Positions 26,402 through 41,209 of a stretch of DNA of 48,943 bases are shown piece after piece. The notes beneath the pieces are model-generated. The model saw only the letters and a program-made list of their open reading frames with translations. It was not told the DNA's origin and ran no database searches. The translations under genes and the position numbers were made by a program. Within the stretch, counting starts at the first letter, position 1. Each line of letters opens with the position of its first letter. Origin of the DNA: Deltaproteobacteria bacterium (GTDB taxonomy: Bacteria > Desulfobacterota > WTBG01 > CAIYCZ01 > CAIRTM01); assembly GCA_024276465.1 (NCBI GenBank), contig JAJRXD010000064.1:1-48943 (forward strand). Reading direction: 5' to 3'.

Positions 26402-27136
26402 TTGAAATCATCATATTATTTCCAAACACAAAAGCTTTTTCTGTTTTTTATTCTTCTCATCTCTTTTCAGGCCTGTCTCAGCCATACACCCCTTCCTTTA
26501 CCATTCGGAAAACCAAGGGGAATCTACCATACTGTTAAAAAAAATCAGAACTTATGGAGAATCTGTCAAGTCTACAATGTCAGTCTGCAGGAAATTGCAG
26601 AGCTGAACAACATCAGGCAAGTTTCACAAATAAAAGCCGGTGATAAAATTTTCATTCCAGGCGCAGAAAAAGTTCTCTGGGTTCCGGCCTCTAAAAACAG
26701 CACAAAAGCAAAATCACCCGTAAAGAAAAAAAACAGGGGTAAAATCGTTAAGCATACCAACATGTTTTACTGGCCTGTAAAGGGAAAGGTGATTAAAAAA
26801 TTTGGAGTTTACAATGGAGTCAAGCATGATGGAATAAATATAAAAGCACCGCCCGGAGCTTCTGTAAAGGCTTCTTACTCAGGCAAAGTTGTCTTTTCAT
26901 CACATCTGCAGGGTTACGGAAACACAATAATAATTCAGCATATAAAAAAATATGCAACTGTTTATGCCAACAACAGGGTCAATTTAGCAAAGAAAGGTCA
27001 GTGGATTAAACGCGGGCAGAAGATTGCAAAGGTCGGAACATCGGCTGGAAACAGCAAAACCCCCTATCTTCATTTCCAGATAAGAAAAAAGAACCGCGCA
27101 AGGAATCCTCTGTTTTACCTGCCTAAAAGATCGTGA
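26402..27136 (+). CDS. NlpD-like lipoprotein with LysM and degenerate M23 domain
   Basis: The N-terminus is a lipoprotein signal peptide with the lipobox ISFQAC. Residues about 40-87 form a LysM domain (YHTVKKNQNLWRICQVYNVS to IKAGDKIFIPG). The C-terminal M23/LytM domain has lost catalytic residues: the HxxxD motif reads HDGIN, the HxH motif reads YLHF, and the YAHL position reads YANN. This points to an NlpD/EnvC-type activator of cell-wall amidases rather than a working endopeptidase. The end NPLFYLPKR also matches NlpD. Translation starts at TTG 26402 after AAAGG. Confidence 0.88.
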   Translation: MKSSYYFQTQKLFLFFILLISFQACLSHTPLPLPFGKPRGIYHTVKKNQNLWRICQVYNVSLQEIAELNNIRQVSQIKAGDKIFIPGAEKVLWVPASKNSTKAKSPVKKKNRGKIVKHTNMFYWPVKGKVIKKFGVYNGVKHDGINIKAPPGASVKASYSGKVVFSSHLQGYGNTIIIQHIKKYATVYANNRVNLAKKGQWIKRGQKIAKVGTSAGNSKTPYLHFQIRKKNRARNPLFYLPKRS

Positions 27137-27167
27137 GTAATTGCCGGGCTTCGTTCGGTTTTTTTTG

Positions 27168-27242
27168 TCATTTCGAGCGTCAGCGAGAAATCTCCTTCCC
27201 AGACTCAGGGATTCCTCATCGCTGGGCTCCCCGGAATGACAG
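27168..27242. repeat. Palindromic TGTCATTTCGA-type element
   Basis: The ends read TGTCATTTCGAGCG and GGAATGACA with an internal GAGAAATCTCC / GGGATTCCTC. It is related to the element at 9959-10036. Confidence 0.5.
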
Positions 27243-27260
27243 GTGAGATCATGACAATAG

Positions 27261-27389
27261 TTACCTTTTTACTTCAACAAAAAGCATCCCCGGTTTCATC
27301 GACTTGTGTATTTTGCAGACAGGACATAGATCAGGCGGGGTATCACCCTTGTGAACATAGCCGCAGGCTGTACATCTGAATTTTTTCAT
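27261..27389 (-). CDS. Rubredoxin-like 42-residue zinc/iron ribbon protein
   Basis: A short ORF encodes 42 residues with two Cys-x2-Cys motifs, FRCTACGYVHKGD and DLCPVCK, the arrangement of a rubredoxin-type metal knuckle (compare the small rubredoxin domain of rubrerythrin). AAGGAA precedes ATG 27389. It starts 3 bases after the stop of the radical SAM gene, so the two are probably cotranscribed. The metal (iron or zinc) and role are not determined. Confidence 0.8.
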   Translation of the reverse strand: MKKFRCTACGYVHKGDTPPDLCPVCKIHKSMKPGMLFVEVKR

Positions 27390-27392
27390 ACT

Positions 27393-28313
27393 TTAACATT
27401 CCTTATAATATTTATCCCCTTCATGTAAAATCTCCTCTACCATGCCTTTGCTCAGCATTGTTTCAAAGCATTTCACAATAACCGCTTCATCAATTCCAAG
27501 GGACCGGCTAACCTGACTGACAGAACATGGGCGCCTTTTAACAAGCTCTGCGATTGACTCCTGGATATTATCCGGCAAAGAGCCGGGCGCCATGTTTGTA
27601 AAACCACCTATTATTTCGGCCTTTTCACCAAAAAGATTCCTGGCAAATTGAAGTTTTTCTTTAGCCGCAGCCTCTATTGCCGAATCCGGGGCAGGCCGGG
27701 CTAAAGAGTTAATCTGTATTTTATCTGCTCCACAGTCCCTTATAAGCATCTCAATTCGCTCCAACTCTTTCCTGCTGTCGTTAATGCCTTTAACAAGCAT
27801 CACTTCAAGCCATATCTGTCCCTGAAAATACTTTCTGAACGACCTGATGCCCCCTATGACTTTTTCCACACTCAGATCCCCGTGTGGACGGTTTATCATG
27901 TCAAACACATCATGACTTGCAGCATCAAGGGAGGGTACAACAAGGTCAGCCCCCATCAGATCGTTCCTCACCTCAGGCAGATAAAGCAGCGTACCATTTG
28001 TCAAAACCGCAACCGGGACAGAACATAACTGTTTAATCCGCTTAATTATCTTTCCAAGGGCAGAATTCAGAGTAGGTTCACCGGAACCGGAAAACGTGAT
28101 ATAATTTATTTTTTCAGTGCCTGTAACTGCTTTTTCAAGTTCCAGCAGAATTAGTTCCGGGGTTACCCATTCTTTTCTTTCCATGGTCTTCACAGTTGTT
28201 GTTCCGACCTGGCAGTAAACACAATCCAGTGTGCATACTTTGCGGGGGACAATGTCAACCCCTAAGGAATAACCAAGGCGTCTTGATGGGACAGGACCGA
28301 ATATGTGAGACAT
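27393..28313 (-). CDS. Radical SAM protein, COG0731 family
   Basis: The protein opens SHIFGPVPSRRLGYSLGVDIVP and has the radical SAM cluster motif C-x3-C-x2-C as CTLDCVYC. SGSGEPTL follows, and then the partial TIM barrel with TNGTLL. The C-terminal 70 residues form a winged-helix-like domain. The COG0731 family is related to wyosine-type enzymes but has no agreed bacterial function. ATG 28313 was chosen because the conserved N-terminus starts there; an upstream ATG at 28379 adds 22 unrelated residues. A rubredoxin-like gene follows immediately. Confidence 0.88.
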   Translation of the reverse strand: MSHIFGPVPSRRLGYSLGVDIVPRKVCTLDCVYCQVGTTTVKTMERKEWVTPELILLELEKAVTGTEKINYITFSGSGEPTLNSALGKIIKRIKQLCSVPVAVLTNGTLLYLPEVRNDLMGADLVVPSLDAASHDVFDMINRPHGDLSVEKVIGGIRSFRKYFQGQIWLEVMLVKGINDSRKELERIEMLIRDCGADKIQINSLARPAPDSAIEAAAKEKLQFARNLFGEKAEIIGGFTNMAPGSLPDNIQESIAELVKRRPCSVSQVSRSLGIDEAVIVKCFETMLSKGMVEEILHEGDKYYKEC

Positions 28314-28383
28314 TACTGGAAAGTCCCTGTTGGATATTGGTTTATAAAGGTTCAGGTGATTAAGGGTTCCAGGGGTCAAGGAT

Positions 28384-28479
28384 TCAAGGGGTCAAGTGTT
28401 TTTCTTCTAATAATTTAATGTGTGCTTTGAGCAGCCTCTCAACATTCCCCATCTCTTCCTTATAGGATTTCTGCCAAAT
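28384..28479 (-). pseudogene. Remnant of a four-helix-bundle (S23-type) protein C-terminus
   Basis: In one minus-strand frame, the sequence reads SYKEEMGNVERLLKAHIK and ends shortly after. This pattern resembles the end of small four-helix-bundle proteins related to the 23S intervening-sequence protein. A stop codon lies just upstream and no start is available, so it is at most a decayed fragment. Confidence 0.35.
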
Positions 28480-28557
28480 TTTTTACTCTTTATGATTTTT
28501 TAGCATTTCACTCGAATCCTCGACCCCTTAATTTTCATCGTGTTCTTTGTGCCTCTG

Positions 28558-29115
28558 TTACTTTGTGCCTGTCTTTTCAATTTCTTTCATAAAACGGTTT
28601 TTTATGTGCAATGGGTCATGTGGTATAATGGAAACATTTTCATTCCCTGGCTCAGTCTCTGCAATAACAATCAGACACCTGTCAGAAAACTGCTCCAGCG
28701 CATTATGCATCTCTGAAATGCTTTTTACCCTTCTGACATTTTCGTTTCCAGCACCCCTTGCAATCAATTCAAGATCAGCTTTTTTTGAAGTATATGTAGG
28801 TTGATTTCCTGTGCTTGCATACACCCTGTTGTCAATTATGACAAGACAGAAATTATCAGGCGCATGGTGAGCAACAGTAACAAGAGATCCCAGGTTCATT
28901 AAAACTGACCCATCGCCATCTATCACGTATACCCTTTTATCCTGGCTAAAGGCCACACCAAGACCTGTTGAGCTTGCAAGCCCCATGGAACCCATCATGT
29001 AAAAATTCTTTGCACTATCCTTTGAGGCATACAGCTCTCTTGACGGAAAACCAAGATTGCAGACGATTAAACCATCACAGCCGGCTATCGCGGTTATAAC
29101 GTCAGATCTCTTCAT
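28558..29115 (-). CDS. comE: Sulfopyruvate decarboxylase, beta subunit (ComE)
   Basis: ComE carries the thiamine-diphosphate half of sulfopyruvate decarboxylase, which yields sulfoacetaldehyde and CO2. The Mg-thiamine motif is present as DGDGSVLMN followed 20-odd residues later by IDNRVYASTGNQPT. GSMGLASSTGLGVA is the typical preceding segment. ATG 29115, with GGAG upstream, gives 185 residues and overlaps the end of comD by 14 bases, so the two subunits are coupled. By sequence alone the family also includes phosphonopyruvate decarboxylases; the adjacent comA and comB decide for sulfopyruvate. Confidence 0.88.
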   Translation of the reverse strand: MKRSDVITAIAGCDGLIVCNLGFPSRELYASKDSAKNFYMMGSMGLASSTGLGVAFSQDKRVYVIDGDGSVLMNLGSLVTVAHHAPDNFCLVIIDNRVYASTGNQPTYTSKKADLELIARGAGNENVRRVKSISEMHNALEQFSDRCLIVIAETEPGNENVSIIPHDPLHIKNRFMKEIEKTGTK

Positions 29116-29596
29116 CCCAAAGCTCCGGTGATAAAAATGCTGCATTTATCCTGCTGCTTTCAAATGCATCTTTAATAAAAGGCCCAAGCCCCTGAAGATC
29201 ATCCTGATTTTTAACATTAAAACAATCCATGTCAAGGGCATTAAGCAACAAAGGAGATTTTTCACCCATTGGCTTCTGGGCAGCAATTTTTTCCCCCTGC
29301 CCTCCTCGATAGCTCATCAGGATAAACAGGGGCAGTTTATAAATACGGGTTAAAGACATGAGAGCATTAATGGAATTTCCCAATCCGGAATTCTGCATTA
29401 AAAGCATCGGTTTTTTTCCTGCAAGAGCAGCTCCGGCTGCAATCCCGACACCCTCTTCCTCCCTGCAAACAGAAATATATTTAAAGGCACGTTTCTCAAT
29501 CTCAGTAATAATCCCTGACAGTATGATGCACGGCACACTCAGGATAATGTCAACACCCCCGGATTCAATGATGTCCACAACTGTTTTATCAACCAT
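29102..29596 (-). CDS. comD: Sulfopyruvate decarboxylase, alpha subunit (ComD)
   Basis: The 164-residue protein matches the pyrimidine-binding half of thiamine-dependent decarboxylases. The activating Glu lies in SVCREEEGVGIAAGAAL, followed by LLMQNSGLGNSINAL and the arginine-containing LMSYRGGQGE that binds the acidic substrate tail. AGGGAAG precedes ATG 29596. It overlaps comB by 8 bases upstream and comE by 14 bases downstream, the separate-subunit arrangement known from methanogens. Confidence 0.9.
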   Translation of the reverse strand: MVDKTVVDIIESGGVDIILSVPCIILSGIITEIEKRAFKYISVCREEEGVGIAAGAALAGKKPMLLMQNSGLGNSINALMSLTRIYKLPLFILMSYRGGQGEKIAAQKPMGEKSPLLLNALDMDCFNVKNQDDLQGLGPFIKDAFESSRINAAFLSPELWDEEI

Positions 29597-30257
29597 TTAA
29601 CTTCCCTGCATTCTTAATTGATTTTCCATCGTAAAAAGGGATAACATCAAAAATATCAGTCCTTGAGATAAAGTCGACATCTTCCCTGTAGCCTGTTTCA
29701 CAGAGGTGTCCTGCGGCAGGCGATTCTCTTGTGAAAAAATTTAACATGTTTTTGTCAAATGAAACTTCTGACAGACATGCTGCAAGTGCAAAAGCAACAC
29801 CCAGATCCTCTGAAACGCCTCTTTCTCCGCCAGCCGGCATTATGCAGGCTTTTTTTTTATTAATGTATTTTGCAATAGAGCTGAGATTCAGGCTGGAACA
29901 TATCAGTGCGTGTGGAACAGACAAAAGCAAAGGCACAAGATTGGTTGTTTTAAGGACAAGCTTTTCAAAGGGGGTTTTTTTAAAGGTTTTCAGGAGTTCT
30001 ACCGGGGAATTGCCAATATCATAGCCCTGAAGTTTGACACACCCTGACTCGCCGGCAATAACAACACCTTTTTTTTTAAATCGATACGCCTTTTCATCAT
30101 CTGAAACAGGAATAATTTCTTCAACTCCAGCAGACAATGCTGTAACTATGGTACTTGATGCCCTTAAATTATCAATTAAAACAACAGCTTCATCCTTTTC
30201 AAAAGTATGAAGCATGGATTTCCCAATCCCTATTCTATAGCTTCCCAAACGTGTCAC
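29589..30257 (-). CDS. comB: 2-phosphosulfolactate phosphatase (ComB)
   Basis: ComB removes phosphate from (R)-2-phospho-3-sulfolactate. The family pattern is visible: VVLIDNLRASSTIVTAL near residues 25-41, IAGESGCVKLQGYDIGNSPVE (written here as one motif of the family core), LKTTNLVPLL, and a C-terminal EDLGVAFALA. It starts at GTG 30257, preceded by AAGAGG, and overlaps the end of comA by 23 bases. The 222-residue length is slightly short for the family. Confidence 0.9.
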   Translation of the reverse strand: MTRLGSYRIGIGKSMLHTFEKDEAVVLIDNLRASSTIVTALSAGVEEIIPVSDDEKAYRFKKKGVVIAGESGCVKLQGYDIGNSPVELLKTFKKTPFEKLVLKTTNLVPLLLSVPHALICSSLNLSSIAKYINKKKACIMPAGGERGVSEDLGVAFALAACLSEVSFDKNMLNFFTRESPAAGHLCETGYREDVDFISRTDIFDVIPFYDGKSIKNAGKLNG

Positions 30258-31023
30258 CTCGAATGCCTCTTCTCAGGGTCTCAAGGGCTATCACATCCTC
30301 AGGTCGAATATTCCCCAGGTTAACATCACTGCCAAACAATAAAATCAGCCTGGCCTGCTGGCTTTTATCAGGAGCCTCAAACATAATGTTTTCAATGCCA
30401 AGCTCATCCACAAGGGTTTTTGCCATATCTTCTTTCAGTCCCCCGCTATCATCATACACGCCAATGCTTCTGCCCCCTTCTCTTGCTTCAATAATAACAT
30501 AATGCGCGCCTGCTTTAAGGTCACTTTCAGCCTCATTTATCCTGTCCTGCAGGGTAAGCATACTGTCTTCCAGAGGATTTTTTTTGCCAACTTCTGATAT
30601 AACAGACATGCCCTTTGATTTTGCAGAGCGTATAATATCTGCTTTGTCTTCAATGCTCATGGACAAAACTCCGTTGGATACCTCAATCAACTCTACTCCA
30701 ATTTCACAGCAGTACTCAAAAAACTGTTCTGTTTTCTTCTGCTTATAAACAATTTCAAGGAGGGTTCCACCATTGCCCACTAAAATATTGTTTTCCCTGT
30801 ACAGGCTGATTTTTCTTTTAATCATCCTCTCAGAAAGCATGCGGGGTGTTGCCCAGGCTAACTTGATAATATCAATGCAGTGTGCAGCTTCCATCAGGTC
30901 CTGAACCTGGTTCAGACCAAAACCCTTATCTAACACCATGCTGAGGCCTTTTTCCCTTGGCTTTTCGGAGCGGGAAATTATGTTTACAAAATCAAATGTC
31001 TTTTTATCATCACTGGCTTCCAT
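30235..31023 (-). CDS. comA: Phosphosulfolactate synthase (ComA)
   Basis: ComA adds sulfite to phosphoenolpyruvate, giving phosphosulfolactate, the first step of the archaeal coenzyme M route. Family segments include KPREKGLSMVLDKGFGLNQV, IDIIKLAWATP, NILVGNGGTLLEI, IEVSNGVLSM, SEVGKKNP and YVIIEAREGG with IMFEAP. These are the phosphate- and metal-binding parts of the TIM barrel. ATG 31023, with AAAGGAT upstream, gives 262 residues. An upstream start at 31062 would overlap queH and is not needed. queH ends 14 bases earlier, so the genes share a transcript. Confidence 0.92.
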   Translation of the reverse strand: MEASDDKKTFDFVNIISRSEKPREKGLSMVLDKGFGLNQVQDLMEAAHCIDIIKLAWATPRMLSERMIKRKISLYRENNILVGNGGTLLEIVYKQKKTEQFFEYCCEIGVELIEVSNGVLSMSIEDKADIIRSAKSKGMSVISEVGKKNPLEDSMLTLQDRINEAESDLKAGAHYVIIEAREGGRSIGVYDDSGGLKEDMAKTLVDELGIENIMFEAPDKSQQARLILLFGSDVNLGNIRPEDVIALETLRRGIRGDTFGKL

Positions 31024-31037
31024 GGTTATCCTTTCAA

Positions 31038-31577
31038 TCACCTGCTGTATAAACAGCCGCAATACTTCTGACGATAAAGTCCGTACTTACGGCTGAGTTC
31101 ACAGCTTTTCCTGTAGCCGTCTTTTTTTTTAAAATCACTCTTAAGAAAATTTATTTTAAAACTGTCCGCCGCATTAGTGCCTATGGAATTAATAAGAACG
31201 GCATTCTTGTGAGGGCTGACGGTCAGGGTGGTGGCAAACAGCGTAAAACCTCTTTCAAAAGCAGTTTCAGCTGTTTTTTTCAGGCGAACGTCAAAACATA
31301 CCCTGCAGCGTTCTGCACCTTCAGGGACATTCTCTAATCCTTTAATAGATTCCATCCAGAAATAATCTTCATAGTCAGGGATAAAAAGCTCTGTTTCCTT
31401 AATCTTACAAAGCTTTTCCATCTCCTGCAGACGTTTTACATATTCTTCTTCAGGCTGTATATTTGGATTATAAAAGAGAATGGTAATGTTGTATGATTGG
31501 GACAGGTAATCTAAAACATATGTAGAACATGGTGCACAGCAGGAATGAACCAGAATTTTTCCCTTGTTACTCTGCAC
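31038..31577 (-). CDS. queH: Epoxyqueuosine reductase QueH
   Basis: QueH performs the last step of queuosine synthesis in tRNA, independently of cobalamin. The 179-residue protein has the DUF208 cysteine and cluster motifs: HSCCAPCST at the N-terminus, CRVCFDVRLKKTAE in the middle, and KYCGC at the end. LFATTLTVSPHKNA is a family landmark. It is the first recognised gene of the com operon; a functional link with sulfonate synthesis is not obvious and may be coincidental cotranscription. Confidence 0.92.
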   Translation of the reverse strand: MQSNKGKILVHSCCAPCSTYVLDYLSQSYNITILFYNPNIQPEEEYVKRLQEMEKLCKIKETELFIPDYEDYFWMESIKGLENVPEGAERCRVCFDVRLKKTAETAFERGFTLFATTLTVSPHKNAVLINSIGTNAADSFKINFLKSDFKKKDGYRKSCELSRKYGLYRQKYCGCLYSR

Positions 31578-31585
31578 TGTTTTTC

Positions 31586-31672
31586 CTATCTTCTTTTTCC
31601 TCTGCCTATCCTTTTCACCTTCCTTTTCCTTTTTTTTCTTTTTGCTGACTGCTGACGACTGATTTTTCCCAT
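31586..31672 (-). CDS. Possible 28-residue, highly basic leader peptide
   Basis: ATG 31672 is preceded by AAAAGGAG at a proper distance, and the ORF ends at 31586, eight bases before the queH start. About seventeen of the 28 residues are Lys or Arg, with blocks such as KRKKRKRKVKR. It lies inside the transcript predicted from the promoter at 31838-31866. I recognise no family. The A/G-rich composition could make this ORF by chance, so it is reported only as a candidate. Confidence 0.35.
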   Translation of the reverse strand: MGKISRQQSAKRKKRKRKVKRIGRGKRR

Positions 31673-31837
31673 AATAACTCCTTTTCCACAGTTGATTCCT
31701 GGTGGCTTCCTAAATCCCGCCAAGCAGGACAGCGTTGCACGCCTTGAGTTTGAAGCTTTTTACTCTGCCATCGAATTTTAACTTCTTACTGTTCTGTTTT
31801 GTTAATTCTTATCGGTACAAACTCTATCTCACATCTA

Positions 31838-31866
31838 ATTATATTTCAATACTTTAATTATTACAA
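31838..31866 (-). promoter_or_regulatory. Promoter of the queH-comABDE operon
   Basis: On the minus strand, -35 TTGTAA (31866-31861) and a perfect -10 TATAAT (31843-31838) are exactly 17 bases apart. The start point would be near 31831. Confidence 0.7.
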
Positions 31867-31871
31867 TACAA

Positions 31872-31907
31872 AAAAGCCTCTGGCGTTTTTAAATTTCAGA
31901 GGCTTTT
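31872..31907. terminator. Bidirectional hairpin terminator
   Basis: AAAAGCCTCTG (31872-31882) pairs perfectly with CAGAGGCTTTT (31897-31907). It separates the excisionase-like gene from the queH-com promoter. Confidence 0.85.
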
Positions 31908-31968
31908 CTAAACACTTTACAATAAACCGGATACTTACTGCCGGGCATAGGCTAATACTGTAAAATTG

Positions 31969-32163
31969 TTATGCACTTTTTCTTGTTCCAACTCGCGCAA
32001 TCTCATCAATCAGTTCCCTGTTGTACCTCCAGGAACTGCCAATTCTAAAACCTGGAATTTCACCTTTTTGCGTAAGTTTATAAACTGTTATTTTGGATAG
32101 CTTTAAGTACTCAGCAACCTCATCCACAGTCATAATAACAGTTTCCATGTTTTTACTTTCCAT
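31969..32163 (-). CDS. Excisionase-type helix-turn-helix DNA-binding protein
   Basis: The 64-residue protein is a single MerR/excisionase-like domain: MTVDEVAEYLKLSKITVYKLTQKGEIPGFRIGSSWRY (quoted family pattern, helix-turn-helix plus wing). ATG 32163 was chosen for its GGGAG upstream. Such tiny proteins act as regulators or as recombination directionality factors; no integrase is near, so a regulatory role is more likely. Confidence 0.85.
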   Translation of the reverse strand: MESKNMETVIMTVDEVAEYLKLSKITVYKLTQKGEIPGFRIGSSWRYNRELIDEIARVGTRKSA

Positions 32164-32246
32164 TCTACTTCTCCCTTTCTGTAAAACAATACTGGCCAAG
32201 TGCCCGTAAAGACTTAATGTTTAATCCCCCCGTACGTTAATAGATG

Positions 32247-32275
32247 AATATAATACAATTTATTTTAAAAGTCAA
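32247..32275 (-). promoter_or_regulatory. Sigma-70 promoter of the excisionase-like gene
   Basis: On the minus strand, -35 TTGACT (32275-32270) and -10 TATATT (32252-32247) are 17 bases apart. Confidence 0.7.
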
Positions 32276-32414
32276 TATTTATTTTCATAAACAAAAATCT
32301 ATAGTTTGTTTTAATTATTCTTATTCTGAAAGAGCCATTTCATGTTATACTAACTATTAATAGTTTTTTTGTAATATTTTTCTCTGGAATTAGTTATTGA
32401 AAGGGTGTCTGCTC

Positions 32415-32780
32415 ATGGCTGATGATTATTTCCTTAAAATTAAAAAAATTGACCATTCAAAAAGATTCGGGCAGCAGAAAAACCCTAAACAGAAAAAAAA
32501 TGAAAAAAAACAGGGCAAAACTAAGGATGAGGCAGTTAAATATTTTGAGGAACTCTCACATTCTGCAGAACGGGTAAATTCCATTCTGGAAAGAAAAAAA
32601 TCTTCTTACAGATTTTGTATTTACAAAGAAAAAAAAGATGTTTATATTGACCTTGTTTTGCTTGACAAAAATAGAAAAGTTCGTGAAACAAGAAGAAAAA
32701 AAATAACACATCAGGAATTTTCAAAAATTATTGAAACCATTGAAAAGCTTGATGGGTTTATTGTTGACTGTGAAGTTTGA
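32415..32780 (+). CDS. Unknown small protein, FlaG-like in pattern
   Basis: The 121-residue protein has a Lys-rich, probably disordered N-terminal third. A globular part follows with alternating strands: RVNSILERKKSSYRFCIY, VYIDLVLLD, ITHQEFSKIIETIEKL. The order (a helix with an Asn, an RF-containing strand, a second strand, a final helix) recalls the FlaG domain, but the FlaG signature for the flagellar context is missing. ATG 32415 was preferred over TTG 32397 because AAGGG lies before it. Function is unknown. Confidence 0.65.
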   Translation: MADDYFLKIKKIDHSKRFGQQKNPKQKKNEKKQGKTKDEAVKYFEELSHSAERVNSILERKKSSYRFCIYKEKKDVYIDLVLLDKNRKVRETRRKKITHQEFSKIIETIEKLDGFIVDCEV

Positions 32781-32801
32781 CATTCTACTGCTTTGTCAGG
32801 T

Positions 32802-33881
32802 TTAGAGGTAATTTTCTCTGCCAGCCTTTTCCAGCAGGTCAACAACTTTTTTAACATCCTGTGCCTTATCCTTTGCACATACCAGCAGAGCATCATCTGT
32901 CTCAACAACAACAATGTCTTTTAAGCCGACAACAGCCGTAAGCTTACCAGGGGAATACACCAGAACATTATTAGAATCAACAGAAACAACATCACCCCGC
33001 AATGCGTTTGAGTCCCTGTTTTTTTTCAGAATATCATGAATTGCAGACCAGCTTCCGATATCATTCCAGCCAAAATCTCCTTTAATTGTAAAAACATTTT
33101 TTGATTTTTCAAGAACACCATAGTCTATTGAAATGGATTCGGTTTTTTTATATGCTGTGGCAATTTCTTCCTGAACTTCTGTCCTGTCCCACAAAGGTTG
33201 AACCTTGATGATATTTGCAAATGCATCAGGAAGATGCTCTTTAATCTCATTTAAAATAGTAGATGCTTTCCAGACAAACATCCCGCTGTTCCACAAAAAG
33301 TTGCCCTGCCTCAAAAATTCTTCCGCCCTCCCGGCATCAGGCTTTTCATGAAAGTTTGAAACCCTGTACAACCCCTCCATTTCTGTTTTTTCCAGCGCGT
33401 CAAACTGGATATAACCATAGCCTGTTTCAGGCCTTTCAGGAGAGATCCCAATGGTTATGAGAGAGCCTGTTAAGCTGGCTGCTTCTGCTGCTTTTTCAAG
33501 ACAGCTGCAGAAAGCTTTTTCATCACCAATATAATGATCAGCTGGAAGCACTGCCATAATTGCTTCAGGGTCCTGCCTGTCTATTTTTGTTGCAGCAAGA
33601 CAGATACATGGTGCTGTATTTCTACCGATCGGTTCAACTATTATGTTCCGGGCTGGAATATCAGGAAGCTGAGACGTCAGCTCATTTAACTGCTCCCTGT
33701 TTGTAACAATCAGTATCCTGTCTTTTGAAACAACAGGAAGAACCCTTTCCACAGTTTCCTGAATCATTGTCCTTTCACCTGTAATATCAAGAAGCTGCTT
33801 AGGGGTGGAAATTCTGCTTCTTGGCCAGAACCTTGTTCCCCTGCCACCTGCCATTATTACAATATACATTTGAGCACTCAT
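32802..33881 (-). CDS. manC: Mannose-1-phosphate guanylyltransferase (GDP-mannose pyrophosphorylase)
   Basis: The enzyme makes GDP-mannose for surface polysaccharides. The nucleotidyltransferase motif MAGGRGTRFWPRSR with PKQLL is at the N-terminus. Other landmarks are VLPADHYIGD, GYGYIQF, FHEKPD, NSGMFVWK, and SIDYGVLEKS with GDFGWNDIGSW. At 359 residues it is the single-domain form, without the C-terminal phosphomannose isomerase domain. AGGAGAAAG precedes ATG 33881. It starts 4 bases after the end of a coiled-coil gene, so the two form an operon. Confidence 0.92.
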   Translation of the reverse strand: MSAQMYIVIMAGGRGTRFWPRSRISTPKQLLDITGERTMIQETVERVLPVVSKDRILIVTNREQLNELTSQLPDIPARNIIVEPIGRNTAPCICLAATKIDRQDPEAIMAVLPADHYIGDEKAFCSCLEKAAEAASLTGSLITIGISPERPETGYGYIQFDALEKTEMEGLYRVSNFHEKPDAGRAEEFLRQGNFLWNSGMFVWKASTILNEIKEHLPDAFANIIKVQPLWDRTEVQEEIATAYKKTESISIDYGVLEKSKNVFTIKGDFGWNDIGSWSAIHDILKKNRDSNALRGDVVSVDSNNVLVYSPGKLTAVVGLKDIVVVETDDALLVCAKDKAQDVKKVVDLLEKAGRENYL

Positions 33882-35343: not shown

Positions 35344-35622
35344 ATGATTAAATCTTTCAAACATAAAGGGTTAGAAAAGTTTTTTTATCATGACGACCAT
35401 CGTCGGATAATCCCTGAACACGCCCCAAGGCTTGCCAGAATTTTGGACCGTTTAGATGCATCTGTAGGGCCTTTTGATATGGATTTGCCAGGCTATAAAC
35501 TGCACAATCTTAAGGGAAAAGATAAAAGCACATGGTCAGTGTGGGTTAATGGAAATTGGCGTGTTACTTTTCAGTTTGATGGAGCAGATGCAACAGCAGT
35601 TGATTACAGGGATTATCATTGA
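35344..35622 (+). CDS. higB: HigB-type toxin (RelE superfamily mRNA interferase)
   Basis: The 92-residue protein matches HigB: IKSFKHKGLEKFF, the middle LDASVGPFDMDLPGYKLHNLKG, and the strand-rich WSVWVNGNWRVTFQF ending DAVDYRDYH-like (here ATAVDYRDYH). The catalytic C-terminal Tyr and His are present, so it looks active. The toxin-first order with an antitoxin downstream is the hallmark of higBA. Confidence 0.93.
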   Translation: MIKSFKHKGLEKFFYHDDHRRIIPEHAPRLARILDRLDASVGPFDMDLPGYKLHNLKGKDKSTWSVWVNGNWRVTFQFDGADATAVDYRDYH

Positions 35623-39025: not shown

Positions 39026-41209
39026 CTATAGCTGCATCTTGTCCCGGAGCATGCGGACAAGGGAAATATTTTCGCGGTGACCTGTCATGTTTGCAGTTAT
39101 CTTCCCCTTAATTGAGCGGCCAAGGAGATAAAGATCTCCAACCATGTCAAGAATTTTATGCCTGACAAACTCATCAGGAAACCTGAGTACAGTATTAACA
39201 ATCTTTTCCTCATCAATTAAAATAAAGTTATTAAGTCTGCCTCCGCCAGCCAGTCCTTTTTTTTCCAGTGCTTCTATATCCTTCAAAAATCCGAAAGTTC
39301 TTGCTGGAGCAATCTCTTTTTTGAATACCTCTTCATCCTCTAAAATAAATGTGTACTCCTGATGCCCGACCGGTTTTGGATAATTCAGTATGTAATGAAT
39401 GGAAAATTTTTCCGAAGGCTCAATTGTGATAAATTTGCTCTTTTTTTTGATCTCACCTAATGAATATTTTTTTTTGACAACAATCTCTTCTGCTATCTCG
39501 TCCTGATCGTCAATACCGGCATCCTCTATTATCTGGCAGAAATCCACTGATGAACCGTCCATAATGGGAACTTCATTGTTAATTTTAATCATAAGATTTG
39601 TTATGCCGTATGCATGGAGTACCGCAAGAAAATGTTCTATGGTGCGGGCAACCGCACTTGAGTTCTTTACACTGGTTGCATAATCAGTGGAAACAACATA
39701 ATCAATGTAAGCCGGGATAGTTTCACCACTGGAAATATTACCAAAAATAATGCCGCTGTTTGGTGGAAGCGGGTTAATAATAATGCCGGTTTTATCTCCG
39801 GAGTGGAGTCCCCTGCCACTCAGCACCATGCTTCTTTTCAGTGTTCTTTGAAACTTTTTCCCTGCCTTTTTCTCCCTGCTCAGGATAATCCCGAATTCAT
39901 TAATGTATCTTCTTAATGTTTTCTCATTAATATCTAATTGTACAGCTGTTTTAGGAACACTTCTATTGTTCTTTTTCAGATAGTAAAGGATATAATTTTT
40001 TCTCCAGGCTGATTCTGCTTCATCCAGGCTCGTATACCTTTCATAATACGGAGCCATACTGTACCGCATCTCATCACGGACAGACAGAGGAATGTCATGC
40101 ACTGAAATATTTTTTGTCGGAACCGAAACAACCAGTTTTTCCACAAGATTTTTCAGCTCTTTAACATTTCCAGGCCAGTCATAGTTTACCAGTATTTCAA
40201 GGGCATCATCCTCAAAATTTTTTTGCCTGAATGCATAATCCCTGCAAAAAAATTCAAGAAAAAAAGTAAGTAAAAGCGATATGTCGCCTCTTCTGTATCG
40301 CAGAGATGGCATTTTTATTTTGTGCGGAAAACAATCAAGCAGGTCTTTATGGAATATTCCGTCTGCTATCCCTTTATCTATATCTTTAATAGATGCTGCA
40401 ATAATTCTTCCCTTAGAGCCATTTTTTTGGGGAGATAAAATAAAGTCTGCAAGCCTCTTTTGTCCTTTCAAAGGAAGCAGGTCTAAAGAATCAATAAAAA
40501 TTGTGCCCTGGGAATTGTTCTGAATAAAACCAGGTTTCGGATTATGTTCTTCTCTGCTCTTAGGGTAGCCAAAAAGCTCTGTTACAAGCTCTTCCGGGGT
40601 ATGAACTGCACAATTAAATTTTTTTACAGAATGAGATCTTCTTCTTGATGCAGAGTGTATCAGCTTTGTAACAAGCTCCTTGCCAGTACCAATCTCTCCG
40701 GAAAGGAAAACATTATCTTCACTTTTTGCCATTTCCGAAATATGTTCCTTAATTCTCAGGATGCTCTGGCTTTCACCTGTTAAAACAGGCTTGTAGTCCT
40801 TTGCGGAAGCCTTGTTCTGTTTTACACCCCTGGTTGAAAACTGACGTTTTTCTTTTATTTTTTTTAATATGTTAATTACGGTATCAAGAGAAAAAGGCTT
40901 TTCTAAAAAATCAAAAGCACCCTGTTTAACAGCCTGAACAGCAGTATTGACAGTTCCATGTCCTGTCATCATGACTACTTCTATGGTAGAATCAAAATCC
41001 TTTATAGCATTAAGTGTCTGAAGACCATCCATTTCAGGAAGCCATATGTCCAGAAAAACAATGTCAACAGCCTGTGATTTAATTATCTCAATTGCTTTAA
41101 TTCCATCTGACGCTGTTCGGACAATACAACCTTCATCTTCAAGGCTTCCGCTTAATGTATTAACAATGGAGTCTTCATCATCAACCAGCAGTATTACAGG
41201 ACTTTCCAT
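39026..41209 (-). CDS. lpxC: NtrX-like regulator fused to UDP-3-O-acyl-GlcNAc deacetylase (LpxC)
   Basis: This 727-residue protein joins two systems. Residues 1-120 are a receiver with phosphoacceptor Asp54 (FLDIWLPEMDG). Residues about 141-370 resemble a sigma-54 AAA+ domain with Walker A GEIGTGKELV, and about 400-440 a Fis-like helix-turn-helix. The AAA+ part has lost the GAFTGA loop and its Walker B Glu (IDS instead of DE). Residues about 453-727 are a full LpxC: GRGLHSG, TIEHFLAVLHAYGI (His526), RHKILDMVGD (His684, Asp688, Asp692) and GHREN (His711), the zinc and catalytic residues of lipid A synthesis. The ntrY gene ends 14 bases upstream. The LpxC part is predicted active; the regulator is unlikely to activate sigma-54. 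Confidence 0.92.
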   Translation of the reverse strand: MESPVILLVDDEDSIVNTLSGSLEDEGCIVRTASDGIKAIEIIKSQAVDIVFLDIWLPEMDGLQTLNAIKDFDSTIEVVMMTGHGTVNTAVQAVKQGAFDFLEKPFSLDTVINILKKIKEKRQFSTRGVKQNKASAKDYKPVLTGESQSILRIKEHISEMAKSEDNVFLSGEIGTGKELVTKLIHSASRRRSHSVKKFNCAVHTPEELVTELFGYPKSREEHNPKPGFIQNNSQGTIFIDSLDLLPLKGQKRLADFILSPQKNGSKGRIIAASIKDIDKGIADGIFHKDLLDCFPHKIKMPSLRYRRGDISLLLTFFLEFFCRDYAFRQKNFEDDALEILVNYDWPGNVKELKNLVEKLVVSVPTKNISVHDIPLSVRDEMRYSMAPYYERYTSLDEAESAWRKNYILYYLKKNNRSVPKTAVQLDINEKTLRRYINEFGIILSREKKAGKKFQRTLKRSMVLSGRGLHSGDKTGIIINPLPPNSGIIFGNISSGETIPAYIDYVVSTDYATSVKNSSAVARTIEHFLAVLHAYGITNLMIKINNEVPIMDGSSVDFCQIIEDAGIDDQDEIAEEIVVKKKYSLGEIKKKSKFITIEPSEKFSIHYILNYPKPVGHQEYTFILEDEEVFKKEIAPARTFGFLKDIEALEKKGLAGGGRLNNFILIDEEKIVNTVLRFPDEFVRHKILDMVGDLYLLGRSIKGKITANMTGHRENISLVRMLRDKMQL

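Follow-up and report, generated by a model that had tools for sequence, protein, structure and literature searches.

In the enzyme families concerned here, phosphosulfolactate synthase (ComA) forms (2R)-phosphosulfolactate from phosphoenolpyruvate (PEP) and sulfite, ComB converts it to sulfolactate, ComC leads on to sulfopyruvate and ComDE to sulfoacetaldehyde. According to PMC11507031, the only organisms known to have com genes were methanogenic archaea and aerobes that use alkenes. A literature search gave no account of them in bacteria such as the one studied here, judged at the level of abstracts and with the subscription literature, including both primary publications on the pathway in bacteria, largely outside it. 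Here we describe an archaeal-type comA-comB-comD-comE set, preceded by queH, in a Deltaproteobacteria bacterium (GTDB lineage Bacteria; Desulfobacterota; WTBG01; CAIYCZ01; CAIRTM01). The analysed stretch of DNA, referred to as the window, comprises positions 1 to 48,943 of contig JAJRXD010000064.1 (assembly GCA_024276465.1), 48,943 nucleotides in total. It is contig 31 of a bin of 4.1 Mb, which is 95% complete and 4.4% contaminated.

The com cassette and its distribution

All five open reading frames (ORFs) of queH-comA-comB-comD-comE are located on the minus strand, running from 31577 to 28558 of the window. The first gene of the cassette, queH (31038-31577), codes for a predicted epoxyqueuosine reductase (PF02677, 2.1e-66). 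It is followed by comA (30235-31062) for phosphosulfolactate synthase (PF02679, 6e-87; TIGR03849, 284.4 bits with a cut-off of 280), comB (29589-30257) for 2-phosphosulfolactate phosphatase (PF04029, 1.2e-36, over the gathering cut-off), comD (29102-29596) for the alpha subunit of sulfopyruvate decarboxylase (TIGR03845, 175.4 bits, cut-off 147.95) and comE (28558-29145, with a possible inner start at 29115) for the beta subunit (TIGR03846, 225.7 bits, cut-off 221.5). ComA, ComD and ComE of the window pass the NCBIfam equivalog cut-offs; ComB scores below them (105 bits vs 235) and is clear by its Pfam family. Solved relatives are 1qwg for ComA (212 bits) and 2yyv for ComB (82 bits). In the second family of the order, ComA and ComD are again over the NCBIfam cut-offs, and ComE, with 213.1 bits, is slightly below.

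A first-pass annotation of the window had proposed this five-gene operon, without mention of its strand, and had assigned archaeal-type ComA, ComB, ComD and ComE to a bacterial host. The operon is present at that span, and both profiles and trees bear out the family identities. The host is bacterial as proposed, since the same contig carries the bacterial genes for LpxC, YidC, an H+-pyrophosphatase, DnaB and a 51 kDa-type subunit of NADH dehydrogenase; judging by its phylum, it would be an anaerobe. Gene overlaps of 23, 8 and 14 bases had also been claimed. Those of comA/comB (23) and comB/comD (8) were found as described, while 14 bases between comD and comE result only from the inner ATG start (29115), the longest ORF giving 44. 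The 'clear promoter' of the same annotation could not be upheld: the top-scoring candidate ahead of queH (31866-31838, 10/12) is one of 12 promoter-like matches, whereas shuffled sequences gave 11.7 ± 3.9, and as it is no better than these it was rejected. An Rfam scan of window positions 27000-33500 yielded no match and hence no preQ1 riboswitch.

ComA was searched for in 58 genomes and matched in 14. It was present in all nine members of the family of the window (window genome included) and in both members of the sister family within the order, all of which are draft bins. None of six other genomes of the class had a match, and the copies in three of 41 genomes elsewhere in the phylum are distant, with 41% identity at best. 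In the 11 genomes of the order, comB always follows comA, and comD-comE follow comB in ten, the eleventh (G008) reaching its contig end; in G005 the cassette is split over two contigs. The queH gene precedes comA in all ten genomes in which the contig covers this stretch. Downstream of comE, eight of the ten genomes whose contigs extend that far carry a radical SAM gene, which occurs in both families. Flank synteny of the window contig is kept in G002 and G004. The sister family (L025) has different flanks and nevertheless retains queH-comA-comB-comD-comE-radical SAM. This order-wide retention with flanks differing between families indicates that the cassette is a maintained unit and not a stray. 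The first observation was real and is stronger than had been claimed.

Ancestry of ComA, ComB and ComDE

Among the matches listed (best 80 of 575), the nearest ComA proteins outside the order belong to Candidatus Methanolliviera and Methanoliparum with 57-58% identity, followed by those of Methanobrevibacter (42-46%). This contig scan is no census, and archaeal loci found later are not among its matches. A draw of 196 genomes of the archaeal phylum, taken from a larger group, contained ComA in 20 genomes, 14 of which have a near full-length copy at 54-60% identity. At all 14 of these loci comB adjoins comA, and comF is located on the other side of comA in eight.

In a first ComA tree of 78 rows, chosen from the fetched ones, the order and the Methanoliparia-type archaea were joined with a support of 98. 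A careful tree was built from 50 rows, after removal of 28 of the 78 (11 near copies, and 17 whose branches were long, odd or deep); here, the order grouped with ten archaeal rows at 99/99. A grouping of all bacterial ComA was rejected (p-AU 0.005). The ComB tree likewise placed the order with archaeal ComB, with a support of 97. ComDE of the order forms a single clade (100/99), and the split between it and four annotated phosphonopyruvate decarboxylases has a support of 100/100. For this tree, seven of the loci of Methanobrevibacter and seven out of 29 hits on plasmids were used, and four archaeal 'halo' rows are truncated by locus ends. On the sequence-based test that the first-pass annotation had named for itself, the trees therefore do not refute it, with ComDE apart from phosphonopyruvate decarboxylases and ComA and ComB apart from unrelated bacterial enzymes.

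Most likely, comA and comB moved from Methanoliparia-type archaea to the ancestor of the bacterial order, transfer in the opposite direction being the less favoured alternative. The G + C content of the operon is 0.41-0.42, the same as that of its flanks. A recent transfer detectable by composition was rejected on this basis, and the lack of a G + C trace suggests that the event is probably old. The gene content of the 14 archaeal genomes whose close ComA is nearly full-length makes it very probable that this branch produces coenzyme M (CoM) for methyl-coenzyme M reductase (MCR), since MCR alpha was found in eight and ComF over the cut-off in ten, two more having truncated copies slightly under it. 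Of three Methanoliparia reached by locus, two have ComF and none has an Ldh_2-type ComC.

Separately, the ComA proteins of three Lactobacillaceae (L067, L073, L102) adjoin Methanobrevibacter ComA in the first ComA tree with a support of 80, perhaps reflecting a second exchange between archaea and bacteria.

Completion of the route and its product

Taken together, we read the cassette as an anabolic route of archaeal affinity that would lead from PEP and sulfite to sulfoacetaldehyde, with CoM as its likeliest single, if unproven, product (rough probability 0.45). Sulfite may come from an assimilatory AprA/AprB-like cluster elsewhere in the genome (L266, G000:C68), which could also give sulfide. 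The cluster encodes L-ASST, a NIL-ferredoxin, two copies of cysK, AprA over its cut-off, an AprB-like protein and a NirA/sulfite-reductase-like protein, together with an Rrf2 regulator and thiazole genes, the latter identified by reading. ComA would add the sulfite to PEP, and dephosphorylation by ComB would yield sulfolactate. This would be converted to sulfopyruvate by an oxidoreductase, in most genomes of the order other than the classical ComC, and ComDE would decarboxylate sulfopyruvate to sulfoacetaldehyde. The last step to CoM is perhaps performed by the homocysteine sulfurtransferase of the cell (L-ASST, 517 bits to HcyBio, PF01837), and an unaided reaction of sulfide, noted in the literature, is a further possibility. 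In M. acetivorans, the loss of ComF may be made up for by L-ASST (PMC12068725). E. coli with an MMP16 homologue is reported to form CoM when supplied with sulfoacetaldehyde (PMC12068725). CoM could be used as a protective thiol; methanogens provide a precedent for CoM acting as an antioxidant thiol (PMC12713407). The full scheme, in which the order makes CoM by the pathway shared with archaea, with a non-classical sulfolactate dehydrogenase, the homocysteine sulfurtransferase in place of ComF and a use outside methane, alkane and MtaA chemistry, is put forward tentatively.

Several results weigh against CoM as the product of an archaeal route. The node uniting the order and Methanoliparia proper has weak support (83 in the first ComA tree), and ComDE of the order has no firm placement among archaeal and roseobacter ComDE, so that a common arrival of the four genes is not required. 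ComF, ComC and MCR (TIGR03287, PF02615 and PF02249) were searched for in 35 of the 58 genomes. ComF (MMP16) over the cut-off was found in none of the 11 genomes of the order, the distant phylum member G042 being the only one of the 35 with such a protein. In a COG1900 tree, from which a second G002 copy (120 bits) was left out, the corresponding protein of the order (ten rows) falls with phylum-wide L-ASST-type copies and is split from ComF at 100. The classical ComC is absent in eight of the 11 genomes, that of the window included. MCR alpha was likewise found in none of the 35 genomes, the 11 of the order included, in a search for which two methanogens alone were positive among 14 named controls. 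MtaA/CmuA (TIGR01463), which was searched in 25 of the 58 genomes together with QueH and QueG, was absent from all 11 at E 0.001. No known CoM user was thus found among those looked for (MCR and MtaA/CmuA; epoxyalkane:CoM transferase was not searched). Gaps are hard to invoke for absences shared by 11 draft genomes.

The first-pass annotation had stated that ComC and any CoM-forming gene are missing here. This is true for the operon and extends to the genome level, where the window genome has no ComC; a genome-wide check for rescue genes was positive in the order only for ComC-type proteins, namely in G001, G006 and G007, which exceed the Pfam cut-off for Ldh_2. The two of these copies that were scanned have L-sulfolactate dehydrogenase as best NCBIfam name, with 191 and 189 bits vs a cut-off of 500. 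Among PDB entries, the G001 copy was closest to the sulfolactate dehydrogenase 2x06, with 129 bits vs 114 for malate dehydrogenase. In a tree, the divergent Ldh_2 proteins and one archaeal operon copy were joined with a support of only 27. A match of 49 residues in the window genome (19.6 bits, under the cut-off, on the strand opposite another ORF) was taken as chance.

Two further observations concern G042. Its ComF-type protein (L264, G042:C13) is encoded beside a cysteine-rich CCG (HdrD/GlcF-like) protein, and the genome also holds five ComA-family and three Ldh_2 proteins (L013, L016, L018, L019, L020, L145, L152, L153). This set possibly belongs to another bacterial CoM or sulfonate route.

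The same route to sulfoacetaldehyde may instead end in another C2 sulfonate, such as taurine, isethionate or a sulfonolipid head group, with ComF absent since CoM is not the goal. This is a serious, if doubtful, contender: as ComF and any known CoM user are absent, such a product is nearly as likely as CoM. The retention of comABDE in an order with neither ComF nor MCR or MtaA is what it would lead one to expect. Against it, the conserved cassette of either family contains no aminotransferase, reductase or lipid gene, although these genes were not searched genome-wide, and its conserved neighbours are QueH and the radical SAM protein.

It is rather improbable that the product is sulfolactate itself, made by ComA and ComB as in Bacillus spores, with ComDE having drifted to another 2-oxoacid (e.g. 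phosphonopyruvate) or to sulfonate breakdown. The lack of a classical sulfolactate dehydrogenase in most genomes of the order would fit, as would 9iz3, the best solved relative of the window ComE (84 bits), which is named as a putative beta subunit of phosphonopyruvate decarboxylase. However, ComD and ComE exceed the sulfopyruvate equivalog cut-offs and, with 89 and 135 bits, are far below the cut-off of 312.5 for phosphonopyruvate decarboxylase (TIGR03297), which is set for the full-length protein. Their separation from the annotated phosphonopyruvate decarboxylases in the tree and the overlapping comA-B-D-E order, which points to a single route, also argue against this explanation, and Methanoliparia likewise lack an Ldh_2 ComC.

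Another proposal is based on position, as comF-comA in many archaea corresponds to queH-comA in the bacteria, and QueH might perform the last CoM step. This was rejected and is very unlikely. queH is a single-copy gene, always in the cassette, in ten of the 11 genomes, and of the 14 genomes from outside the order that this search covered, 11 have QueH as well; QueG over the cut-off was found in none of the 25. QueG-like proteins (G000:C161:51398-52000 and kin) scoring roughly 140-190 bits, short of the 200-bit cut-off, are present in most genomes of the order and are likely other iron-sulfur reductases. Being the sole queuosine-reductase family member of the cell, QueH is read as incidental, probably the queuosine enzyme of the cell and a housekeeping passenger on a shared transcript outside the sulfonate route. 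Its link with the operon, called unexplained in the first-pass annotation, thereby receives a plain reading. Finally, archaeal contamination of the metagenome bin, to which the 4.4% might point, has next to no probability given the bacterial genes on the contig, the synteny in G002 and G004 and a cassette that occurs in 11 separate genomes and forms its own clade.

The core of the first interpretation is accordingly right and its end product undecided, so that it is partly supported. As far as sequences go, the four-gene set is common to the order and to methane- and oil-metabolising archaea. A comABDE set across an order of Thermodesulfobacteriota would extend the known range of com genes and provide a natural setting in which to test the ability of L-ASST to complete CoM synthesis. 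It would also point to a sulfolactate dehydrogenase still to be found, which Methanoliparia may share, and caution against taking com genes in metagenomes as markers of methanogens.

Neighbouring genes and comparison with known pathways

The sixth conserved gene of the cassette (27393-28379, minus strand) encodes a radical SAM protein with no assigned function (PF04055, 2.4e-18), which is COG0731-like by its motif. Between it and comE, a short GGGTCAAGG-like repeat was read by eye at 28350-28400. Upstream of queH, a small HTH_17 (excisionase-type) DNA-binding protein is encoded at 31969-32199 on the minus strand (PF12728, 4.5e-15). According to the ORF lists, its gene is found upstream of queH in six of the 11 genomes and is absent from the second family; the protein may be a regulator or a mere neighbour. 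Elsewhere in the window, a 727-aa protein (39026-41209, minus strand) consists of an NtrC-type response regulator (receiver and sigma-54 activator) fused to LpxC. The fusion looks real, since orthologues of similar length exist in G004 (L021, 68%) and G002 (L024, 64%). A HigB-like toxin gene (PF05015) is located at 35344-35622 on the plus strand, and the next ORF may hold the antitoxin.

Compared to the archaeal type-1 CoM pathway, the order has homologues of ComA, ComB and ComDE in the gene order of Methanoliparia, and its ComA and ComB share a clade with their archaeal counterparts. It differs in the lack of ComF, in the restriction of an Ldh_2-type ComC to three of 11 genomes and in a bacterial host without MCR. 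In addition, comD and comE are fused in the closest archaea, whereas they are separate genes in the bacterial order. ComA and ComB of Bacillota, Chloroflexota and other Thermodesulfobacteriota belong to the same families, PF02679 and PF04029. These ComA proteins share about 38-45% identity with that of the window (best 80 of 575 matches) and fall outside the clade of archaea plus order, and their loci have no comD or comE within the fetched flanks.

The CoM pathway of Xanthobacter Py2 and of etn clusters shares phosphosulfolactate synthase as the first step. As described in PMC11507031, its further enzymes resemble argininosuccinate lyase, adenylosuccinate lyase and a PLP-type (pyridoxal phosphate) desulfhydrase and include a sulfoacetaldehyde dehydrogenase, all encoded near epoxide genes in aerobes. 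In the order, ComB and ComDE follow ComA instead, and the cassette has no gene for any of these enzymes; lyases of the Xanthobacter type were found neither in the cassette nor among the scanned window proteins, no genome-wide search having been made. Roseobacters possess sulfopyruvate decarboxylase pairs of the same comD-comE annotation, as in Leisingera (L257). There, the pair is accompanied by a TRAP transporter, a hydroxyacid oxidase and dehydrogenases, without comA or comB. These neighbours make the Leisingera pair look like part of a breakdown route, whereas the comA-comB neighbours in the order point to synthesis.

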